Of a DNA stretch of 35,743 bases, positions 7,536 through 35,743 are shown in pieces. The notes under the pieces were generated by a model, which saw only the letters and a program-made list of their open reading frames with translations, made no database searches and was not told the DNA's origin. This DNA is from Lachnospiraceae bacterium (GTDB lineage Bacteria; Bacillota; Clostridia; Lachnospirales; Lachnospiraceae): assembly GCA_017480565.1 (NCBI GenBank), contig JAFVAL010000057.1, positions 1 through 35,743 on the forward strand, read 5' to 3'. Numbering within the stretch: the first letter of the stretch is position 1; each line of letters begins with the position of its first letter. The position numbers and the translations under genes were made by a program.

Positions 7536-8150
7536 TTATCGGAACGACATCTTCTTCAGCGCTGCCTTCAAAACATCTTCCACATCCATCTCGTCCGTCA
7601 TCGCAACCGCGCGCACCGCTTTGGCAGCTTCCGTCGGTGAATAGCCAAGCGCAGTCAATGCCTCGATCGCATCGCCCTGCACAGAGTTCGTCTCTTCCTT
7701 CTGCTTCTTCGCGGCCTTGCGCTCCAAGCTCTCCTCGAACGTCTCCTCCAGATGAATCTTATCCTTGAGCTCTAAGATCAGCTTCTTCGCGGTCTTAAGA
7801 CCGATCCCCTTCGCGGAAGAAATAGCCTTGACGTCTTCCGCCAGAATCGCATACTGCAGATCCTCCGGGCTAAGCGCCGATAAGATATCAAGCGCTCCCT
7901 TCGGCCCAACACCATTCACCGTCAAGAGCAGCTGAAACAGCTTCTTGTCTGCTCTCGTCAAAAATCCGTACAGCTGTCTGGCATCCTCTCTCACATGATA
8001 ATATGTATAAATCTTACAGACATCCCCGATGACCGGCAGCTCATCAAATACGGTCGTAGGCACCAAAATCTCATAGCCAACGCCTCCGGCCTCCACCGTA
8101 ATCCGGTCTTCTAACAGTTCCGTCAATTCACCCTTAATATATGCGTACAT
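7536..8150 (-). CDS. ruvA: Holliday junction DNA-binding protein RuvA
   Basis: A 204-aa protein that binds four-way junctions as tetramers and loads RuvB. It has the N-terminal OB domain (MYAYIKGEL onward), the two helix-hairpin-helix motifs (VNGVGPKGALDIL and AKGIGLKTAKKLILEL) and the C-terminal RuvB-contact domain (EALTALGYSPTEAAKAV). The start is the ATG at 8150. A TTG at 8162 is in frame, but its bases form part of the GGAG ribosome site, so it is not the start. It is the first gene of ruvAB, with a LexA-controlled promoter. Confidence 0.96.
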   Translation of the reverse strand: MYAYIKGELTELLEDRITVEAGGVGYEILVPTTVFDELPVIGDVCKIYTYYHVREDARQLYGFLTRADKKLFQLLLTVNGVGPKGALDILSALSPEDLQYAILAEDVKAISSAKGIGLKTAKKLILELKDKIHLEETFEESLERKAAKKQKEETNSVQGDAIEALTALGYSPTEAAKAVRAVAMTDEMDVEDVLKAALKKMSFR

Positions 8151-8183
8151 GAAAAACTCCAATCAAATCATTTGATATGAAAA

Positions 8184-8212
8184 AGTATAGAACATTTGTT
8201 CGCTTCTGTCAA
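8184..8212 (-). promoter_or_regulatory. ruvAB promoter with embedded LexA (DinR) box
   Basis: On the minus strand a consensus TTGACA (8207-8212), a 17-bp spacer and TATACT (8184-8189). The spacer holds GAACAAATGTTC (8190-8201). Extended, it reads CGAACAAATGTTCT and matches the Firmicute LexA consensus CGAACRNRYGTTYC at 13 of 14 positions. A repressor bound there would cover the space between -35 and -10, so SOS control of ruvAB is strongly indicated. Confidence 0.85.
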
Positions 8213-8221
8213 CCACCAGAC

Positions 8222-8251
8222 TTGCTTTTTCTTGCCCTCTTATATTATACT
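8222..8251 (+). promoter_or_regulatory. Putative promoter of the YprB-like gene
   Basis: TTGCTT (8222-8227), an 18-bp spacer and TATACT (8246-8251), 33 bp before the ATG. It diverges from the ruvAB promoter. The LexA box lies 20 bp upstream of the -35, so an effect on this gene is possible but not shown. Confidence 0.5.
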
Positions 8252-8284
8252 GAAAGTGATTCTAAATGAAAAGAGAAATGCATT

Positions 8285-9388
8285 ATGATCACGATCACAG
8301 AACCTGTTTGCATCGATGCCGATCCGATCCTTCCGGAAGGACTATCTGCATCCGACTGCATTTTTTTCGATATTGAAACTACCGGCCTCTCCGCCGACAC
8401 GTCATCGCTCTACCTGATCAGTGTGCTGACATTTTCTGCAAATGTCTGGACACTCCACCAGTGGTTCGCCGACGATTACGACAGCGAGCCGCAGATTCTC
8501 ACGGTCTTTGGCGAGATGTTAAAAGGTGCGAAAGCCGTCGTCCAGTACAACGGAGACACCTTCGATGTTCCCTACCTTGAGGCCAAATGGCGCGCACACC
8601 ACATGCCTTATTCCTTTTCCGGCATCGTTTTGTGGGATATTTACAGAAAGATTCGGCCATTTTCCTTTTTGCTGAAAACGCCGAATCTCAAGCTGAAAAC
8701 GATGGAGGAACTTCTCGGTATTTACCGCAAAGATCCTTATAATGGTGGAGAATTGATTACGGTCTACGGCACCTTCCTGCGCGCACACTACTGCAACAAG
8801 CCGACCGAGGAATTCTTGGCGCCCCTCCTGCTGCACAACCGCGAAGATGTGCTCTCTTTGCCCGCGCTGACGACCCTCATCGGTTACGCCAGCCTCCAGG
8901 ATGGCACTCACCGCGTGGCAAATGTATCCGCCACCGACACACAGCTTGTGCTTACCTTAAATTTAAGTCACACACTCCCACAGAACTTCACCTTCCGCGG
9001 GGATCACTGCTTCTTCGAAGGGACCCAGGATCAACTACAGATCCGCGTCGATTATCTGGAAGAAGAGCTTAAATACTTCTTCCCAGACTACAAAGACTAT
9101 TACTACCTCCCGGTCGAGGACACCGCGGTTCATAAAAGTGTCGGCGAATTCGTCGACAAAGAATACCGGCAAAAAGCAACTGCCGCCACCTGCTATATCC
9201 GCAAGGCAGGTCGTTTTCTACCGGTTGACGAGACATTTGCCACACAGACAAGACGGCTCTTCCGCAGGGATTATAAGAGCAAGGAGCACTATCTACTCTG
9301 GGAAGACACACTGTTAGAGGATGCAGACTTCTTGCACGCTTACGCTTCTGCGCTGCTCGCAAAGATCAAGAAGCCAGGGAAGAAGTGA
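8285..9388 (+). CDS. YprB-like ribonuclease H-like (DEDD exonuclease) domain protein
   Basis: A 367-aa protein. Residues about 24-195 form a DnaQ-fold 3'-5' exonuclease domain. Exo I is FFDIETTGL (D29, E31), Exo II is VQYNGDTFDVPYL, and the Exo III-like block is HNREDVLSL. This matches the YprB-type RNase H-like domain of Firmicutes, whose substrate is not established. The C-terminal 170 residues have no recognised motif and are basic at the end (KIKKPGKK). The ATG at 8285 follows an AGAGAAA-type ribosome site. It is divergent from ruvAB and convergent with the AT-rich island. Confidence 0.82.
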   Translation: MITITEPVCIDADPILPEGLSASDCIFFDIETTGLSADTSSLYLISVLTFSANVWTLHQWFADDYDSEPQILTVFGEMLKGAKAVVQYNGDTFDVPYLEAKWRAHHMPYSFSGIVLWDIYRKIRPFSFLLKTPNLKLKTMEELLGIYRKDPYNGGELITVYGTFLRAHYCNKPTEEFLAPLLLHNREDVLSLPALTTLIGYASLQDGTHRVANVSATDTQLVLTLNLSHTLPQNFTFRGDHCFFEGTQDQLQIRVDYLEEELKYFFPDYKDYYYLPVEDTAVHKSVGEFVDKEYRQKATAATCYIRKAGRFLPVDETFATQTRRLFRRDYKSKEHYLLWEDTLLEDADFLHAYASALLAKIKKPGKK

Positions 9389-28331: not shown

Positions 28332-28372
28332 ATTTTATCATGATTTTCATTTAAAGTAAATCAATTACTTTA
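28332..28372 (-). promoter_or_regulatory. glgA promoter with overlapping inverted repeat
   Basis: On the minus strand TTTACT (28355-28360), a 17-bp spacer and TAAAAT (28332-28337). The 8-bp inverted repeat TAAAGTAA (28352-28359) / TTACTTTA (28365-28372) covers the -35 box. It could be an operator or a small stem at the end of the upstream operon. Confidence 0.55.
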
Positions 28373-28781
28373 CATAAAACCCAGCTAATTTATAATCTAC
28401 ATCGAATGATAAGGTATAAACAGCCTTCCCATTTTCATACTTCGCAGTAATGACAGCGACACCGAAATCCCCGGCCTTCGCATTGTGCGAACCACCGATC
28501 GCCTGCTGCGTGTATTCGACAAACGCACCGTAGGAACCAATCTGGCCTTCCACCGCTTCTTTGAGCGCCTCTGCACTGACCGCTGCCTGAAACGTCGTAT
28601 CGGATCTGTCCCAGATTGCCTGGTAATCCTTCTCATGCACGAGATCCAGCACTTCCTTTGCGGCCTTCTCGATGTCTTCTTTTGTCATCCCCTCCGGGAT
28701 CTTCGTGCCGGTGCAGCCCGACAGGCTCATCACGCAAATGACTGCCATAAGCAGCACCGCAATCCATCGTTTCGCTCTCAT
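28365..28781 (-). CDS. DUF3887-like lipoprotein
   Basis: A 138-aa exported lipoprotein. The signal peptide ends in the lipobox LSGC (C23). The mature part has KEVLDLVHEKDYQAIWDRSDTTFQAAVSAEALKEAV and GSYGAFVEY, then strands VAVITAKYENGKAVYTLSFD. This arrangement matches DUF3887, an NTF2-like fold of unknown function. The ATG at 28781 lies 3 nt after the DUF2156 stop, so it is the last gene of the typA operon. The glgA promoter overlaps its stop. Confidence 0.75.
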   Translation of the reverse strand: MRAKRWIAVLLMAVICVMSLSGCTGTKIPEGMTKEDIEKAAKEVLDLVHEKDYQAIWDRSDTTFQAAVSAEALKEAVEGQIGSYGAFVEYTQQAIGGSHNAKAGDFGVAVITAKYENGKAVYTLSFDVDYKLAGFYVK

Positions 28782-28784
28782 GTC

Positions 28785-29711
28785 TCAGCCTCTTTTCTGA
28801 ATCTTAAACTTCTTCTCAAGGCGCAGCGGGTAGTACGATTCCTTGGCCTGCCGCAGACCCTCTTCTCCCATATCATCCTCGCGGTTGACGATCTCCGCCT
28901 CCGGAAATGCATTCACTAAGAAGAGTTGGTTGATGATCGTATACAGCCCGCGGATCTCCGGGTTCGCCTTCTCGACCTGAATATCCGCCATCTTAAGCTT
29001 CGGATTGTACGTCCCGATCGAATATGCCTCTAACTGTCCGTCGATGTAGATACCGCCCATCTCACAGTCAATCGCGGCGCAATTGCGAAAGACCTTAAAG
29101 ATTCCTCGCTCCTCACCGGTCAGGAACCCTTCCGGATCCTCCAGATTCTGCTCGCGGTTCTCCACCCAGCGCATATGATAGGCTTCAATCTCACACACAT
29201 TGGCACAATCCAGTGCACGGTACTCGTAGCGTCCCTCGTAGTCCTTCAGGAACCGGTTTAGATTATTTTTCTTCTTATGCAGTTTCTTGCCAGCAAGCGT
29301 CTTTAACTTCTCTGCCTCGTAAATGTAATCGAACGAATCTCTGGTCTCGACCGCTTCATAACGAGCCGAAAGCTCAGGATCCTCACTCACAACCTTTGCA
29401 AATGTCTCGTCCACCGCATAGATTTTTAAGTCTCTGCCGACCTCATTTGCAAAATAATCCTCCAGCTCACGTACCGCGGCTGGAATGTCTTCCTCGGCAC
29501 ATAGTGGCATCATCGCTGCGATATGACCGCTCTCCTCCCCGACAAGCAGGTAAAAAGCAAGGTCAGACTGCATCCAGAGCACCTCGTACTGCTCCGCCCA
29601 GATCAGCTGGGTCAGAAACTGCCCCTCACAGATGTAGATCGGCCTGCGATCCGCAAATTTCCAAAAAACTTCCGCACACTGCGGTGTCAGTTTTTCCGGT
29701 TTTGTTAACAT
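28785..29711 (-). CDS. DUF2156 (LPG synthase C-terminal domain-like) protein
   Basis: A 308-aa soluble protein resembling DUF2156, the double GNAT-fold domain related to the aminoacyl-transferase part of MprF. Motifs are KLAGKKLHKKKNNLNRFLKDYEGRYEYRAL in the centre (the basic KLxxKKNxLNxF block typical of the family) and GIYIDGQLEAYSIG. The C-terminal block is EIRGLYTIINQLF with NREDDMGEEGLRQAKESYYPLRLEKKF. No membrane domain is present, so it is not a full MprF. The acceptor is unknown. The ATG at 29711 has AAGGGG upstream and lies 27 nt after typA. Confidence 0.85.
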   Translation of the reverse strand: MLTKPEKLTPQCAEVFWKFADRRPIYICEGQFLTQLIWAEQYEVLWMQSDLAFYLLVGEESGHIAAMMPLCAEEDIPAAVRELEDYFANEVGRDLKIYAVDETFAKVVSEDPELSARYEAVETRDSFDYIYEAEKLKTLAGKKLHKKKNNLNRFLKDYEGRYEYRALDCANVCEIEAYHMRWVENREQNLEDPEGFLTGEERGIFKVFRNCAAIDCEMGGIYIDGQLEAYSIGTYNPKLKMADIQVEKANPEIRGLYTIINQLFLVNAFPEAEIVNREDDMGEEGLRQAKESYYPLRLEKKFKIQKRG

Positions 29712-31659: not shown

Positions 31660-31688
31660 AGTATAACATTTTCACGGAAAGATTGCAA
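31660..31688 (-). promoter_or_regulatory. Sigma-A promoter of typA
   Basis: On the minus strand TTGCAA (31683-31688), a 17-bp spacer and TATACT (31660-31665). The -35 word is palindromic and may also serve the divergent operon. Confidence 0.7.
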
Positions 31689-31712
31689 TAAAACAAAGCG
31701 CTTCTGCATTAT
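31683..31712 (+). promoter_or_regulatory. Possible promoter of the MBL-VTC-sigma operon
   Basis: TTGCAA (31683-31688), an 18-bp spacer and CATTAT (31707-31712). It would share its -35 with the typA promoter. The match is moderate. An ECF promoter for the operon's own sigma factor could also exist here but I cannot identify one. Confidence 0.35.
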
Positions 31713-31754: not shown

Positions 31755-32654
31755 ATGATCCGAAGAATTTCAAGAAAAACCGAATATATCCTGATCGGTC
31801 TGTTTGCCGCGATCCTGATCGCAGTCCTGCTGCTTCTTTGGAGAAGCCATAACAAGTCAAAGCCGGATGCGCTTCCTCCCCTGACCACAACCATTTTAAA
31901 AGTGGGCAAGGCCGATGCGATTGTGATCCGCGAGGGAGCACACACGATGCTCATCGATTGCGGCGAGGAAGATGACGGACAGGAAGTCATTGATTTTTTA
32001 ACCAACAGAAACATTGAAAAGGTCGATGTCCTCATCATCACACACTACGACAAAGACCACGTCGGCGGTGCGGATCAGCTCATCGAACAGATCCCTGTAG
32101 AACGCATTTTGCTGCCGGATTACAAAGGCGCAAGCACCGAATACTTCGATTTTGTCGCCGCGATGAAGCGCGCGAATCTGACCCCGGAGGTCTTAACAGA
32201 CGATGTTACGTTCTCCTTCGGTTCAGCCGAAGTCCTCGTCTCGCCCTCGCATCTGATGGATCATGAAGAAGCGACAAATGCAGTCGCTGCGGGGTTCGAT
32301 ATCGATAATAACCTCTCTCTCATCACGATGATGACACACGGCCAAAACCGCATGCTCTTTACCGGAGATGCTGAGAAAGAACGCATCCGCGAGTGGTGTT
32401 CCTCGGACAATGCGAAGACCTGTGCATTTCTAAAACTACCGCACCACGGCGTGTATAACACAGCGCTTGCGGAGCTTTTAGAGACCGTGAAGCCACAATA
32501 CAGTGTCATCTGCGATTCTGCCAAAAATCCGGCAAGCGCGGATACGTTAGAAACTCTGAAGCTTTATGGCGTGGATGTTTTGGAAACCAAAAACGGAAAG
32601 ATCACCATCACGAGCGATGGCATCGATCTTTATCTGAAACAAAAAGTGAAGTGA
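31755..32654 (+). CDS. Membrane-anchored MBL-fold hydrolase (ComEC C-terminal-like)
   Basis: A 299-aa protein with a basic start, one membrane helix (about 11-29) and an external metallo-beta-lactamase domain. The metal motif is THYDKDHVGG (H97, D99, D101, H102). FTGDAEKE and LPHHGVYN give further ligands. The layout resembles the hydrolase domain of ComEC/Rec2, often annotated as a competence-like MBL hydrolase. The substrate may be nucleic acid or a phosphoester, but this is not shown. The ATG at 31755 has GGGAGG seven bases upstream. It is the first gene of an operon with the VTC, DUF4956, sigma and anti-sigma genes. Confidence 0.85.
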   Translation: MIRRISRKTEYILIGLFAAILIAVLLLLWRSHNKSKPDALPPLTTTILKVGKADAIVIREGAHTMLIDCGEEDDGQEVIDFLTNRNIEKVDVLIITHYDKDHVGGADQLIEQIPVERILLPDYKGASTEYFDFVAAMKRANLTPEVLTDDVTFSFGSAEVLVSPSHLMDHEEATNAVAAGFDIDNNLSLITMMTHGQNRMLFTGDAEKERIREWCSSDNAKTCAFLKLPHHGVYNTALAELLETVKPQYSVICDSAKNPASADTLETLKLYGVDVLETKNGKITITSDGIDLYLKQKVK

Positions 32655-32664
32655 GGTGCGTTTG

Positions 32665-33417
32665 ATGATACAGACAGATTTTTGCAGGTATGAAAAGAAA
32701 TACCTGATGTCAAGGCTCACCTACGAAGCCCTGCGTGCCCGTCTTGAGCCTCACATGCAGCCGGATGAATTCGGAGAAACCACGGTCTGTAACATTTATT
32801 ATGATACGGATTCCTCGGAGTTAATCCGGCGCTCCATCGAGCATCCGATCTATAAAGAAAAACTGAGACTTCGCAGCTACGGTGTCCCAACGATGGATTC
32901 CACGGTCTTTCTCGAGATCAAGAAGAAAATCAACAAAGTCGTTGCCAAAAGGCGCATTCCGCTTACGTTAAAGGAAGCTTACGACTATGTGGAATGCGGC
33001 AGAAAGCCATCAGAAGAAAACCAGGTGCAGCGCGAAATCGACTTTCTGCTCCACCGGTACCAGCTAAAAAGATCCATCTATCTGGCCTATGACAGGCTCG
33101 CGCTGATAGGCAAGGAAGATCCCGGATTTCGGATCACATTTGACACCAAAATTCGCTCCCGCAGAAACCACATGGGTTTAGAAGAAGGGGATGTCGGCGA
33201 GCTTTTACTGCCGGATGGCTACGTGCTCATGGAGACAAAAATCTTAGGTGCCTCGCCTCTTTGGTTTAGCAGAATTCTCTCCGAGCTGCACATTTACCCG
33301 GTCTCCTTCTCCAAGTACGGGAACTTCTACAAAAAAGGTCTGGGAGTCTGGGATTACGGCCAGTTGATCACACATGAAGAACAAATTGGGAAGGCAGGTG
33401 AGATTCTCTCATGTTAA
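32665..33417 (+). CDS. VTC domain protein (polyphosphate polymerase family)
   Basis: A 250-aa protein of the CYTH-like VTC family. In yeast the Vtc4 tunnel domain polymerises polyphosphate from ATP; bacterial relatives are mostly uncharacterised. Visible marks are RYEKKYLMS (8-16), NIYYDTD (43-49), YKEKLRLRSYG (63-73), VFLEIKKKINKVVAKRRIPL (81-100) and the late VLMETKILG, which supply the basic and acidic tunnel residues. It has no membrane segment, so it probably works with the DUF4956 membrane protein. The ATG at 32665 has GAGG eight bases upstream; the in-frame GTG at 32656 is less likely. Its end overlaps the next gene by 7 nt. Confidence 0.88.
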   Translation: MIQTDFCRYEKKYLMSRLTYEALRARLEPHMQPDEFGETTVCNIYYDTDSSELIRRSIEHPIYKEKLRLRSYGVPTMDSTVFLEIKKKINKVVAKRRIPLTLKEAYDYVECGRKPSEENQVQREIDFLLHRYQLKRSIYLAYDRLALIGKEDPGFRITFDTKIRSRRNHMGLEEGDVGELLLPDGYVLMETKILGASPLWFSRILSELHIYPVSFSKYGNFYKKGLGVWDYGQLITHEEQIGKAGEILSC

Positions 33418-34079
33418 GCAGTTTATTACACGCAGGAACCTTTGATCTTCGCTCCGTGCTGTTAAGTCTTGGCACCGCGATCCTCCTAGGCCTTGTGATT
33501 GCTCTTATTTACAAGCAAATCTGTCTGCAGAGCGGCACCTTTGCTTTGATTTTGGCAGTGCTCCCCTTACTGGTGGCCTCGGTGATTTTGATCGTCAACG
33601 GCAACCTTGGCACCTCTGTGGCAGTCCTCGGGGCGTTCGGACTGATTCGCTTCCGTTCTGCGCCGGGCACCGCCAAGGAAATCATGTTCATTTTCTTTAC
33701 GATGGCGGTTGGGCTTGCCTGTGGTATGGGCTTTTTAAGCCTTGCACTCATCATCACCATCCTTGTGGGCCTGAGCGTCATCGTCATGGAAAAAACCGGT
33801 TTCTCGCAGACCATCGCAAAGGAAAAAGAGCTGCGCATCACGATCCCTGAAGATCTCAGTTACAACGGGATTTTCGATGATCTTTTCTTAGAATACACGA
33901 AGGTTGCAGAGCTCTCCCACGTCAAGACAACAAATATGGGAACCATGTACGAACTCTGCTATCACATCATCATGCGAGATCCGAAGAAGGAAAAAGAGCT
34001 GATTGACGCGATCCGCTGCCGTAATGGCAATTTAACTGTACTATTGGGGCTTGTGCAAAGAGAGAGGAACGAATTATAA
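33411..34079 (+). CDS. DUF4956 membrane protein
   Basis: A 222-aa protein with four or five membrane segments in residues about 15-125, then a cytosolic domain. The block GAFGLIRFRSAPGTAKEIMFIFFTMAVGLACGMG is the characteristic DUF4956 core. Function is unknown, but DUF4956 genes commonly pair with VTC-domain genes, so it may anchor or serve as exit path for the VTC product; that is inference. The ATG at 33411 overlaps the VTC stop (7 nt). Its stop overlaps a possible sigma start as TAATG. Confidence 0.85.
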   Translation: MLSSLLHAGTFDLRSVLLSLGTAILLGLVIALIYKQICLQSGTFALILAVLPLLVASVILIVNGNLGTSVAVLGAFGLIRFRSAPGTAKEIMFIFFTMAVGLACGMGFLSLALIITILVGLSVIVMEKTGFSQTIAKEKELRITIPEDLSYNGIFDDLFLEYTKVAELSHVKTTNMGTMYELCYHIIMRDPKKEKELIDAIRCRNGNLTVLLGLVQRERNEL

Positions 34080-34120
34080 TGAGCATAGAACAAATGAGAA
34101 CACAGGAGGAGGTGAGAACG

Positions 34121-34693
34121 ATGCCGGCATGGGCGATCACAGCAAAGCAAACTGCAGTGCAAAAACAAAAGCAAATCGATGAGTCACTCATTTCCCGCAT
34201 CGCTGGCGGTGACCGTCAGGCCTTCTTAAAACTGTATGAACAGTGCAGTTCTTCCGTGTATGCTTACGCCCTCTCCATGCTTCGCAATGTGAGTGATGCG
34301 GAGGATGTGATGCAAGATACCTTCCTAAAGATTCACGGAGCGGCACATTTATACAAAGCAAAAGGCAAGCCGATGGCCTGGATTCTCACCATTACCCGCA
34401 ATCTTTGCCTGATGAAACTAAGAAAAACTTCGGATCTCATGGCCGTCTCCTTTGAAGAAGCGGTTGCTGCACCTCTGCGTGAGACCGTCCACCAATCAGA
34501 GGACCGCATCGTTCTCACCGCGGCCTTGTCCATGTTATCACCGGAGGAGAGTCAGATCATCTTGCTGCACGCCGTTTCGGGGCTCAAACACCGCGAAATC
34601 GCAGAACTCATGCAGCTGCCGCTTTCGACCGTTTTATCGAAATATAACCGCGGCACCAAAAAGCTTCGCAAAGAATTGGAGGGAAAGCTATGA
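34121..34693 (+). CDS. ECF-type RNA polymerase sigma factor
   Basis: A 190-aa sigma-70 family protein. Region 2 is FLKLYEQCSSSVYAYALSMLRNVSDAEDVMQDTFLKIH (35-72) with the DAEDVMQDTFLK core contact. Region 4 is LSPEESQIILLHAVSGLKHREIAELMQLPLSTVLSKYNRGTKKLRKEL (139-186), a helix-turn-helix for -35 recognition. The ATG at 34121 has AGGAGG eight bases upstream and is preferred. An ATG at 34079, coupled to the DUF4956 stop, would add 14 residues. The anti-sigma gene overlaps its stop (ATGA), the usual sign of a sigma/anti-sigma pair. Likely targets include its own operon. Confidence 0.9.
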   Translation: MPAWAITAKQTAVQKQKQIDESLISRIAGGDRQAFLKLYEQCSSSVYAYALSMLRNVSDAEDVMQDTFLKIHGAAHLYKAKGKPMAWILTITRNLCLMKLRKTSDLMAVSFEEAVAAPLRETVHQSEDRIVLTAALSMLSPEESQIILLHAVSGLKHREIAELMQLPLSTVLSKYNRGTKKLRKELEGKL

Positions 34694-35743
34694 GCACGTT
34701 AAACAATCATCAGATAGAGCAGCATATCGATCAGGCTGTTTCCGTACTGCCGCAGGCGAACCCGGAAACGCTCTGGGAGACGCCTTACACGGAGGCTTCC
34801 GGCAATGAATGGTATCTTGACGGAACCGCAGAAAAAAAGAAAGTGTCTGCACGTCCGTATGTGATCGGCGCACTCTCGCTGGCCGCCTGTTTTGCGATCC
34901 TGTTTATGATGTATTTCCAGGCAAATATGGCCACACGCGCGACCATTTATCTGGATGTCAATCCGAGCATCGAGCTCGATGTCAACGCGAAAAATCAAGT
35001 CATCCGTGCGCAGGCAAACAATGCGGATGGCAAAATCATTTTAGAAAATATGAACTTAAAACACGCGGACTTAAATGTCGCCGTCAATGCGCTGATCGGT
35101 TCCATGGTCAAGCATGGATACCTCTCCGAAGCTGCGAACATGGTACTCTTGTCCGTAGAAGGCTCTGACAGTGCGTATGTAGAAGATCTGCGCATCTCAC
35201 TTGCCAAGGAAATTGAAACCAGCGTAAAAGAGCTCGTAGGCCATGGCACCGTCTTTGACCAGCGAATCGAAGATGATGATCATCTGGAGGATCTTTCCGA
35301 GCGCTACCGCATTTCCCTCGGAAAAGCTGCTCTGATTCGTTCGATCACCGAGAAAAACCCGGATTTGTCCTTCGAGGATCTTTCAAAGATGAACATTAGA
35401 CAGCTGTCCGCTTATCTGCAGACCAACGGGCTGAAAATCGAGGATTATACCCACCTTTCCGGCGATCCGATCTTCTCCGAAGAAGACCTTCGTGATTACT
35501 ATGAAGACCTTGCGGAAGGGGACGATCCGGCAGACGCACTCTTAGACCTGCTGGAAGATTTCGGTGAAATAGACGACCTTGACGATCTTGATGATCACGA
35601 TGATGATGATCATGATGACGATGACAAAGATGACGATGACCGCCGCGAAACCACCACAAAGGCGCAAGAAAAGACGACTAGAAGACATCATGATGATGAC
35701 GACGACGATGACGATGATCGTTATGATTATGATGACTGGGACG
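34690..35743 (+). CDS. RsgI-like transmembrane anti-sigma factor with Asp-rich tail (partial)
   Basis: At least 351 codons, running off the window. The short cytosolic N-terminus (1-55) should hold the sigma factor. One membrane helix follows at about 57-77. The outer part begins ATIYLDVNPSIELDVNAKNQVI (84-105), the hallmark of RsgI-type juxtamembrane domains; in RsgI proteins the chain cleaves itself at the Asn-Pro of VNP (N91-P92 here). The middle region (about 110-260) is helical. From about residue 284 it becomes extremely acidic, with long Asp runs mixed with His, then RRETTTKAQEKTTRRHH and a second Asp run, likely a metal-binding or flexible tail. The ATG at 34690 overlaps the sigma stop. 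It was assembled by my own reading, since the frame has no stop in the window. Confidence 0.88.
   Translation, partial: MSTLNNHQIEQHIDQAVSVLPQANPETLWETPYTEASGNEWYLDGTAEKKKVSARPYVIGALSLAACFAILFMMYFQANMATRATIYLDVNPSIELDVNAKNQVIRAQANNADGKIILENMNLKHADLNVAVNALIGSMVKHGYLSEAANMVLLSVEGSDSAYVEDLRISLAKEIETSVKELVGHGTVFDQRIEDDDHLEDLSERYRISLGKAALIRSITEKNPDLSFEDLSKMNIRQLSAYLQTNGLKIEDYTHLSGDPIFSEEDLRDYYEDLAEGDDPADALLDLLEDFGEIDDLDDLDDHDDDDHDDDDKDDDDRRETTTKAQEKTTRRHHDDDDDDDDDRYDYDDWD

Follow-up and report, generated by a model that had tools for sequence, protein, structure and literature searches.

The window described here, a stretch of 35,743 nucleotides from a Lachnospiraceae bacterium (contig JAFVAL010000057.1), makes up the whole of contig C52 in a 2.78-Mb assembly that comprises 76 contigs. 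At its right-hand end, five genes follow one another closely and code for a hydrolase with a metallo-beta-lactamase (MBL) fold, a VTC-domain protein, a DUF4956 membrane protein, an extracytoplasmic function (ECF) sigma factor and an RsgI-like membrane anti-sigma factor (Table 1). The first-pass annotation of this DNA named the same five genes and supposed that the last two form an envelope-type switch that controls the operon. All five open reading frames (ORFs) were found where it had placed them, and each product has the expected domain above the Pfam cut-off. Our analysis indicates that the genes form a real, lineage-restricted operon, and it provides strong computational evidence that this operon is driven by its own ECF switch.

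The sigma factor is classed as ECF because Sigma70 regions 2 and 4 score above the Pfam cut-off and no region 3 family is listed. The ORFs from the VTC to the anti-sigma gene overlap by 7, 1 and 4 nt, as noted previously, the last figure being that of the sigma gene and the adjoining anti-sigma gene, and a candidate autoregulatory promoter motif lies before the operon. However, the 1-nt overlap between the DUF4956 and sigma genes disappears if the sigma gene starts at ATG 34121, which lies behind GGAGGAGG with a better ribosome site and is at least as good a start as ATG 34079. On inspection of the VTC sequence, ATG 32665 is likewise at least as good as GTG 32656. The contig stops inside the anti-sigma gene at 35743, so the true end of this gene is unseen.

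Table 1. Features of the VTC-DUF4956 operon in the window.
Feature	Position	Strand	Basis
Candidate ECF promoter, TGCAATAA-N13-TGCATTA	31684..31711	+	Exact motif match, 43 bp 5' of MBL start codon
MBL-fold hydrolase, membrane-anchored, ComEC-MBL/Pce-like, 299 aa	31755..32654	+	Pfam PF00753 Lactamase_B, 66.8 bits; anchor by eye
VTC-domain protein	32656..33417	+	PF09359, 145.4 bits; start GTG 32656 or ATG 32665
DUF4956 membrane protein, 222 aa	33411..34079	+	PF16316, 51.9 bits
ECF sigma factor	34079..34693	+	PF04542 Sigma70_r2, 60.4 bits; PF08281 Sigma70_r4_2, 47.3 bits; TIGR02937 above cut-off
RsgI-like membrane anti-sigma factor, truncated by contig end	34690..35743	+	PF23750 RsgI_M, 94.1 bits, residues 84-216
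Codons Asn91-Pro92, predicted autocleavage site	34960..34965	+	First residue of solved RsgI fragments aligns with residue 92

The promoter motif was derived from stand-alone pairs of ECF and RsgI-like genes. Up to 220 bp 5' of the sigma gene were taken from 25 such pairs, of which 23 came from the family search and two (G464 and G442; G numbers are genomes, L numbers loci) from the order search. This first set omitted the VTC-linked pairs of the window, G038 and G011, as well as G279 (SigI), G165, G157 and G268. The top two-block word pair occurs in 21 of the 25 upstream regions, compared with a best count of 3 in ten shuffles. The consensus TGCAATAA-N13-TGCATTA is present at 13 or more of 15 positions before the sigma gene in 24 of the 25 pairs (the exception is G218), mostly 20-70 bp before the gene. 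Six sigma genes scored later gave 14 (G165, G483 and G389), 10 (G157 and G463) and 9 (G268), so that 27 of 31 stand-alone sigma genes overall carry the motif at this threshold; in G380, the sigma gene lies at a contig end.

In the window, an exact (15/15) site precedes MBL, the first gene of the operon. It falls within a gap of 117 bp between MBL and typA/bipA, and because typA/bipA is on the opposite strand, this gap is a natural promoter region. No other match with one mismatch or fewer exists in the 2.78-Mb genome. The region before the first operon gene scores 15/15 in G038 (VTC) and 13/15 in G622 (MBL); the start of the G011 operon lies beyond its contig. Directly before the internal sigma gene of VTC-linked operons, no promoter was found, all four regions scoring 10-11 of 15, which is background (400 shuffles give 8-12). 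With a matrix trained solely on the 25 stand-alone regions, the window scores 28.2, G038 31.4 and G622 22.9. Among 1046 upstream control regions from 105 loci, five score above 20, namely the training-set sigma promoters of L160, L182 and L184, a PepSY gene (L220) and the MBL gene of G622; the next best reaches 13.3. Across a further 77 named VTC loci (L036-L112), the highest score in the 1.5 kb preceding VTC is 13 in one case and no more than 12 in the others. L034, which lacks the sigma pair, scores 9 before its first gene, and no site of 13 or more occurs anywhere in the L033 or L034 stretch.

Of 14 selected carrier genomes, 9 contain exact sites (15 in total), compared with none of 14 genomes lacking the pair. 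Since seven of the 15 sites belong to the training set, eight are independent: those of the window and G038, and an additional site in each of six genomes. Sites with at most one mismatch number 31 in carriers and 20 in non-carriers, and these counts were not used as evidence because genomes without the pair hold up to seven. A control with the reversed pattern was also set aside, as it includes a CpG word and may be too lenient. The spread of the latter 20 matches over 8 of the 14 non-carrier genomes would suit a different explanation, in which the motif is the operator of another regulator or an RNA element, not an ECF promoter. The two halves of the motif also resemble a direct repeat, and no target is evident for the second exact site in G278. 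Against this explanation stand the confinement of exact sites to carriers, their usual distance before sigma genes, and second sites that precede a secreted PepSY gene, a secreted repeat protein and a conserved noncoding stretch; we consider an operator or RNA element quite unlikely. The first-pass annotation took the operon genes to be targets of the sigma factor, and the predicted regulon includes them; in its own genome, the operon is the sole candidate at one mismatch or fewer. The MBL, VTC and DUF4956 genes probably belong to the sigma factor's autoregulated operon. Because the motif of the ECF pair itself precedes the first gene, the envelope-type switch very probably controls the whole operon.

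The second sites are of several kinds. In L218, L219, L222 and L223 (genomes G228, G047, G034 and G261), a second exact motif lies in intergenic DNA near a DnaJ-like gene. It precedes some 130 nt of conserved noncoding sequence that may form an ATCAAG/CTTGAT hairpin and is a candidate ECF-controlled small RNA. The second motif of G089 precedes a gene (L220, 10135-10758, minus strand) for a secreted-type PepSY protein that resembles the C-terminus of the anti-sigma factor of the same genome. In G442, a gene for a secreted-type repeat protein follows a second motif (L217, 4023-4652, minus strand), and likewise in G464.

The anti-sigma factor comprises a hydrophobic stretch at about residues 57-78 (by eye), the RsgI_M domain and an acidic tail. 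The central domain bears out its description as RsgI-like. However, RsgI_N (PF12791) was not detected in the window protein by the Pfam scan at E-values up to 0.01 (one SigI-type protein, of what we call type B, gave RsgI_N just under the cut-off), and the partner is an ECF factor, not SigI. We therefore regard the protein as working like RsgI, but do not file it as RsgI. In the chains of solved RsgI fragments (8her_B, 8u9o_B, 8heq_B and 8hdj_B), the first residue aligns with Pro92, which makes Asn91-Pro92 the likely site of self-cleavage. In Clostridium thermocellum, autocleavage of RsgI is followed by RseP cleavage and Clp degradation, according to PMC12203970. The SigI/RsgI systems of C. 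thermocellum and Bacillus subtilis thus resemble the window in having an RsgI_M membrane anti-sigma factor, the Asn-Pro autocleavage position and adjacent sigma and anti-sigma genes. The window differs in its ECF sigma factor with region 4, in the undetected RsgI_N, and in having an acidic tail and no other known outside domain.

Pairs of ECF and RsgI_M genes are common in the family. The family search gave a match in 84 of 299 genomes; the source genome has a single RsgI_M protein, the window anti-sigma factor. Among the matches listed, an ECF gene stands beside the RsgI_M gene in 29 of 30 loci (one weakly, 2e-5), and SigI in one. DUF4956 lies directly upstream in three of these 30 loci (window, G038 and G011). 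Acidic tails (at least 60% Asp or Glu in the last 60 residues) are also present in G206, G217, G235 and G464, whose fetched stretches contain no VTC gene, and we rejected the idea that an Asp tail is special to the VTC-linked pair. Cation sensing by this tail, as suggested in the first-pass annotation, is a speculative role.

Of 106 confirmed relatives, 80 named loci were kept. In the DUF4956 tree (86 rows), the window forms a clade with G038, G011, L033, L034 (placed by hidden Markov model) and L035 (support 100/99). In the sigma tree (28 rows), it groups with G011, G038 and G206 (99/97). The two clades fit, but do not prove, a single joining event with later losses. L035 keeps MBL, VTC and DUF4956 plus the first 65 sigma codons, its contig ending inside the sigma gene; in G206, the sigma pair lies beside other genes and DUF4956 copies are distant only. 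The proposal that gene order is conserved in relatives therefore holds for some of them and is not universal: the order is kept, but in a small, eroding clade. A universal order was rejected, as sigma directly follows DUF4956 in L035 only among the 80 named loci.

Several observations weigh against an operon under its own switch. L033 and L034, whose VTC proteins are 62 and 59% identical to that of the window, keep MBL-VTC-DUF4956 without the sigma pair and have other genes directly after DUF4956, so the module can do without the switch. No anti-sigma match was found in the genomes of L033, L034 and L035, an absence that is weak evidence in these assemblies because the sigma start of L035 lies at a contig end. 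On the DUF4956 tree, the sigma-bearing loci are intermixed with L033 and L034 (three changes; 211 of 500 shuffles are as low), and the branching order within the sigma and DUF4956 clades disagrees. G622, of another genus, has MBL-VTC-anti-sigma with neither DUF4956 nor sigma between, the anti-sigma ORF overlapping the end of VTC; this absence concerns the locus only, the rest of G622 being unsearched. In G038, an in-frame TGA that is either natural decay or a sequence error splits the anti-sigma gene (L114, about 8096-9328) into two ORFs. The motif was not found in 4 of 31 stand-alone sigma genes (G218, G157, G268 and G463, of which that of G463 is a fragment and that of G268 a weak ECF), and the region before MBL in L035 scores 11/15, within background, though a sigma start is present. 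Finally, among the matches listed, no VTC or DUF4956 gene lies within about 1.5 kb on each side in the other 27 of 30 loci.

These 27 loci, together with L033, L034 and G622, would be expected if the sigma pair were a passenger that joined by chance in one ancestor and mainly regulates itself. The promoter before MBL would then be an old promoter displaced by the inserted cassette, and control of VTC would have no function. Nevertheless, the order with short spacing is kept in the window, G038 and G011, whose sigma proteins separate well in the tree, and six genomes show a link between RsgI_M sensors and another VTC subfamily. A passenger pair seems unlikely to us, and we favor, as the likely arrangement, one autoregulated operon with its own ECF/anti-sigma switch.

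The link between VTC and sigma/RsgI-type genes is a repeated one and takes two forms. Of 299 genomes searched, 76 have both VTC and RsgI_M genes, and in nine of these the two lie no more than about 4 kb apart, compared with 0.48 expected from gene numbers and genome sizes, a comparison that is not a strict probability because the genomes are related. Eight of the nine come from two family searches; G011 rests on a contig-end VTC fragment found with the window protein. Three of the nine are ECF-type. The six SigI-type genomes (G029, G033, G052, G066, G308 and G311) carry VTC proteins of a different subfamily (the one aligned is 23% identical to the window protein) and DUF4956 beside SigI, RsgI and an RsgI_M lipoprotein that bears acidic repeats, after which a CotH-like gene follows. 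In G033, the SigI and RsgI genes are divergent, and in G052, two other genes interrupt the locus. The assignments come from Pfam for members in G029, G308, G311 and the VTC-less G279 locus, and from sequence likeness for the rest. The SigI-type loci thus share with the window a sigma/RsgI-type sensor beside VTC-DUF4956 and acidic repeat tails. They differ in sigma class, in the extra RsgI_M lipoprotein and in the CotH kinase, which Pfam did not find among the five window proteins (genes up to the contig end).

A SigI/anti-sigma/VTC/CotH locus is listed for C. perfringens (NELoc-2) in PMC2879425 and PMC11677781, the latter alone among our literature matches having VTC and CotH together. The "tubulin" genes of PMC2879425 appear to be DUF4956 genes. 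The general pairing of VTC with sigma/RsgI genes is therefore not wholly new, and the system proposed earlier as undescribed is so only in part. We found no publication that joins VTC with an ECF sigma factor, polyphosphate and an anti-sigma factor, in a literature search that covered few subscription journals.

Two further observations concern SigI-type loci. In G052, two genes inside the SigI-VTC locus (L154, 4419-5592, minus strand) resemble by eye an AbiE-type nucleotidyltransferase/antitoxin pair. SigI-RsgI-lipoprotein triads, with or without VTC-DUF4956-CotH, were seen in L152-L157 and L161-L164. Their lipoproteins repeat RsgI_M (plus PepSY in two of three scanned) and carry DTDYGPNNDGVTDYN-type repeats or long Asp tails.

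The VTC protein resembles the eukaryotic VTC complex (yeast Vtc4) in its triphosphate tunnel metalloenzyme (TTM)/VTC domain, tunnel residues and membrane partner, a likeness drawn by sequence alone. It differs in that Pfam finds no SPX domain and DUF4956 is a separate family. A profile made from 18 sequences matches Vtc4 in the PDB at 6.2e-17; the single window sequence fails to match Vtc4 in the same kind of search. When the window protein is aligned with 35 relatives, the invariant residues include K15, R71, R73, E87, K89, K98, R147, R159, E193, S219 and K220. Ten of 11 mapped Vtc4 tunnel positions are kept: K200, R264, R266, K281, K294, R361 and R373 correspond to K15, R71, R73, K89, K98, R147 and R159 in the window, and E426, S457 and K458, counted by hand in a weak second alignment, to E193, S219 and K220. 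Loss of all tunnel residues, which the first-pass annotation had held to be damaging to its proposal, is therefore excluded. Apart from R264, R266 and E426, we presume these positions to be the important ones of the tunnel. Those three are reported as mutant (PMC9911596).

Two points count against a Vtc4-like activity: R253 of Vtc4 aligns with Ser60, and no activity is reported for bacterial VTC or DUF4956 in the literature searched, within the same journal coverage. Apart from the tunnel residues, what comes closest to pointing to polyphosphate is a PPK2 gene that lies 1.1 kb downstream of the MBL-VTC-anti-sigma operon in G622 (L181, 10760-12232, plus strand). Phosphate-polymer chemistry for the VTC protein is a tentative assignment that falls just short of being probable.

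A DUF4956 homologue is present in 79 of the 80 named VTC loci, and Pfam gives no function for this family. The MBL sequence matches the ComEC MBL domain (2.8e-17) and the phosphorylcholine esterase CbpE/Pce (1.3e-7) in the PDB. A full ComEC competence protein was rejected: the 299 residues contain the MBL part only, and TIGR00361 scores 88 bits against a cut-off of 190. MBL homologues adjoin VTC in five of the 80 named loci (L033, L034, L035, L069 and L078) and in L181; those of L035 and L181 have lipoprotein-like starts (by eye).

The named loci have VTC proteins of the same subfamily as the window. A neighbor cluster whose single scanned member is a Cthe_2159 beta-helix protein occurs in 61 of the 80, and two-component systems are near: a histidine kinase in 25 and a response regulator in 22; in 16 loci the regulator comes second after VTC, in place of an ECF pair. 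Contig C15 of the source genome carries another, distant VTC-DUF4956 pair, with a Cthe_2159 protein encoded behind it. Elsewhere in the window, an LPG_synthase_C-type protein (28785-29711, minus strand) is followed by a DUF3887 lipoprotein-like gene (28365-28781, minus strand).

Surface-type neighbors such as the Cthe_2159 cluster, and CotH in type B loci, suggest that VTC-DUF4956 may make no polyphosphate and instead transfer phosphate in the modification of surface glycans or proteins, with CotH, the Cthe_2159 beta-helix or MBL as partner. The resemblance of MBL to a teichoic-acid phosphorylcholine esterase fits this possibility, as does the occurrence of CotH-PPP-DUF4956 beside Pel exopolysaccharide genes in Gram-positive bacteria (PMC7112168). 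The Pel loci share with the window a VTC-type polymerase adjoining DUF4956. They differ in being linked to Pel synthesis genes and CotH, and the text of PMC7112168 at hand mentions no ECF/anti-sigma pair. The surface-type partners and exopolysaccharide genes are the nearest hint against polyphosphate. The match of the tunnel residues to Vtc4 argues the other way, as does PPK2 in G622, though at 1 of 223 loci. We see surface modification as a possible role, held with some doubt; it concerns the enzyme step only and is compatible with the switch.

From the computed gene content and order, domains, tunnel residues, cleavage-site motif and promoter motif before the first gene, we infer how an operon with its own switch might work. 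At rest, the membrane anti-sigma factor would hold the ECF sigma factor, and its outside RsgI_M domain would have cut itself at Asn91-Pro92, the pieces staying together. Either an external signal or tension on the acidic C-terminal part may then separate the two pieces, whereupon an intramembrane protease would cut the helix and release the sigma factor. The freed factor would read the promoter before MBL and transcribe MBL-VTC-DUF4956-sigma-anti-sigma. The VTC protein, a putative triphosphate-tunnel enzyme, might make polyphosphate or a related phosphate product at the inner membrane face, with DUF4956 as its presumed membrane partner and perhaps conduit, and the surface MBL hydrolase might trim a phosphate-containing surface polymer.

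A broader conjecture, which we rate as rather unlikely, is that VTC-DUF4956 acts as an exchangeable machine for surface phosphopolymers, which either makes and exports polyphosphate or polyphosphorylates proteins of the surface. It would have been placed repeatedly under self-cleaving ECF- or SigI-type anti-sigma sensors, whose acidic, Asp-, His-, Lys- or Thr-bearing tails the product would bind or modify, closing an envelope feedback loop.

VTC genes are widespread, being present in 224 of 299 family genomes, yet the role of VTC-DUF4956 is unreported in the literature searched. At least two distinct architectures connect RsgI_M-domain sensors with VTC modules. For ECF factors partnered by RsgI_M-type anti-sigma proteins, a common group, the motif yields a promoter rule that can be tested, and the candidate promoter and named switch provide a means to turn the VTC-DUF4956 module on and seek its product.

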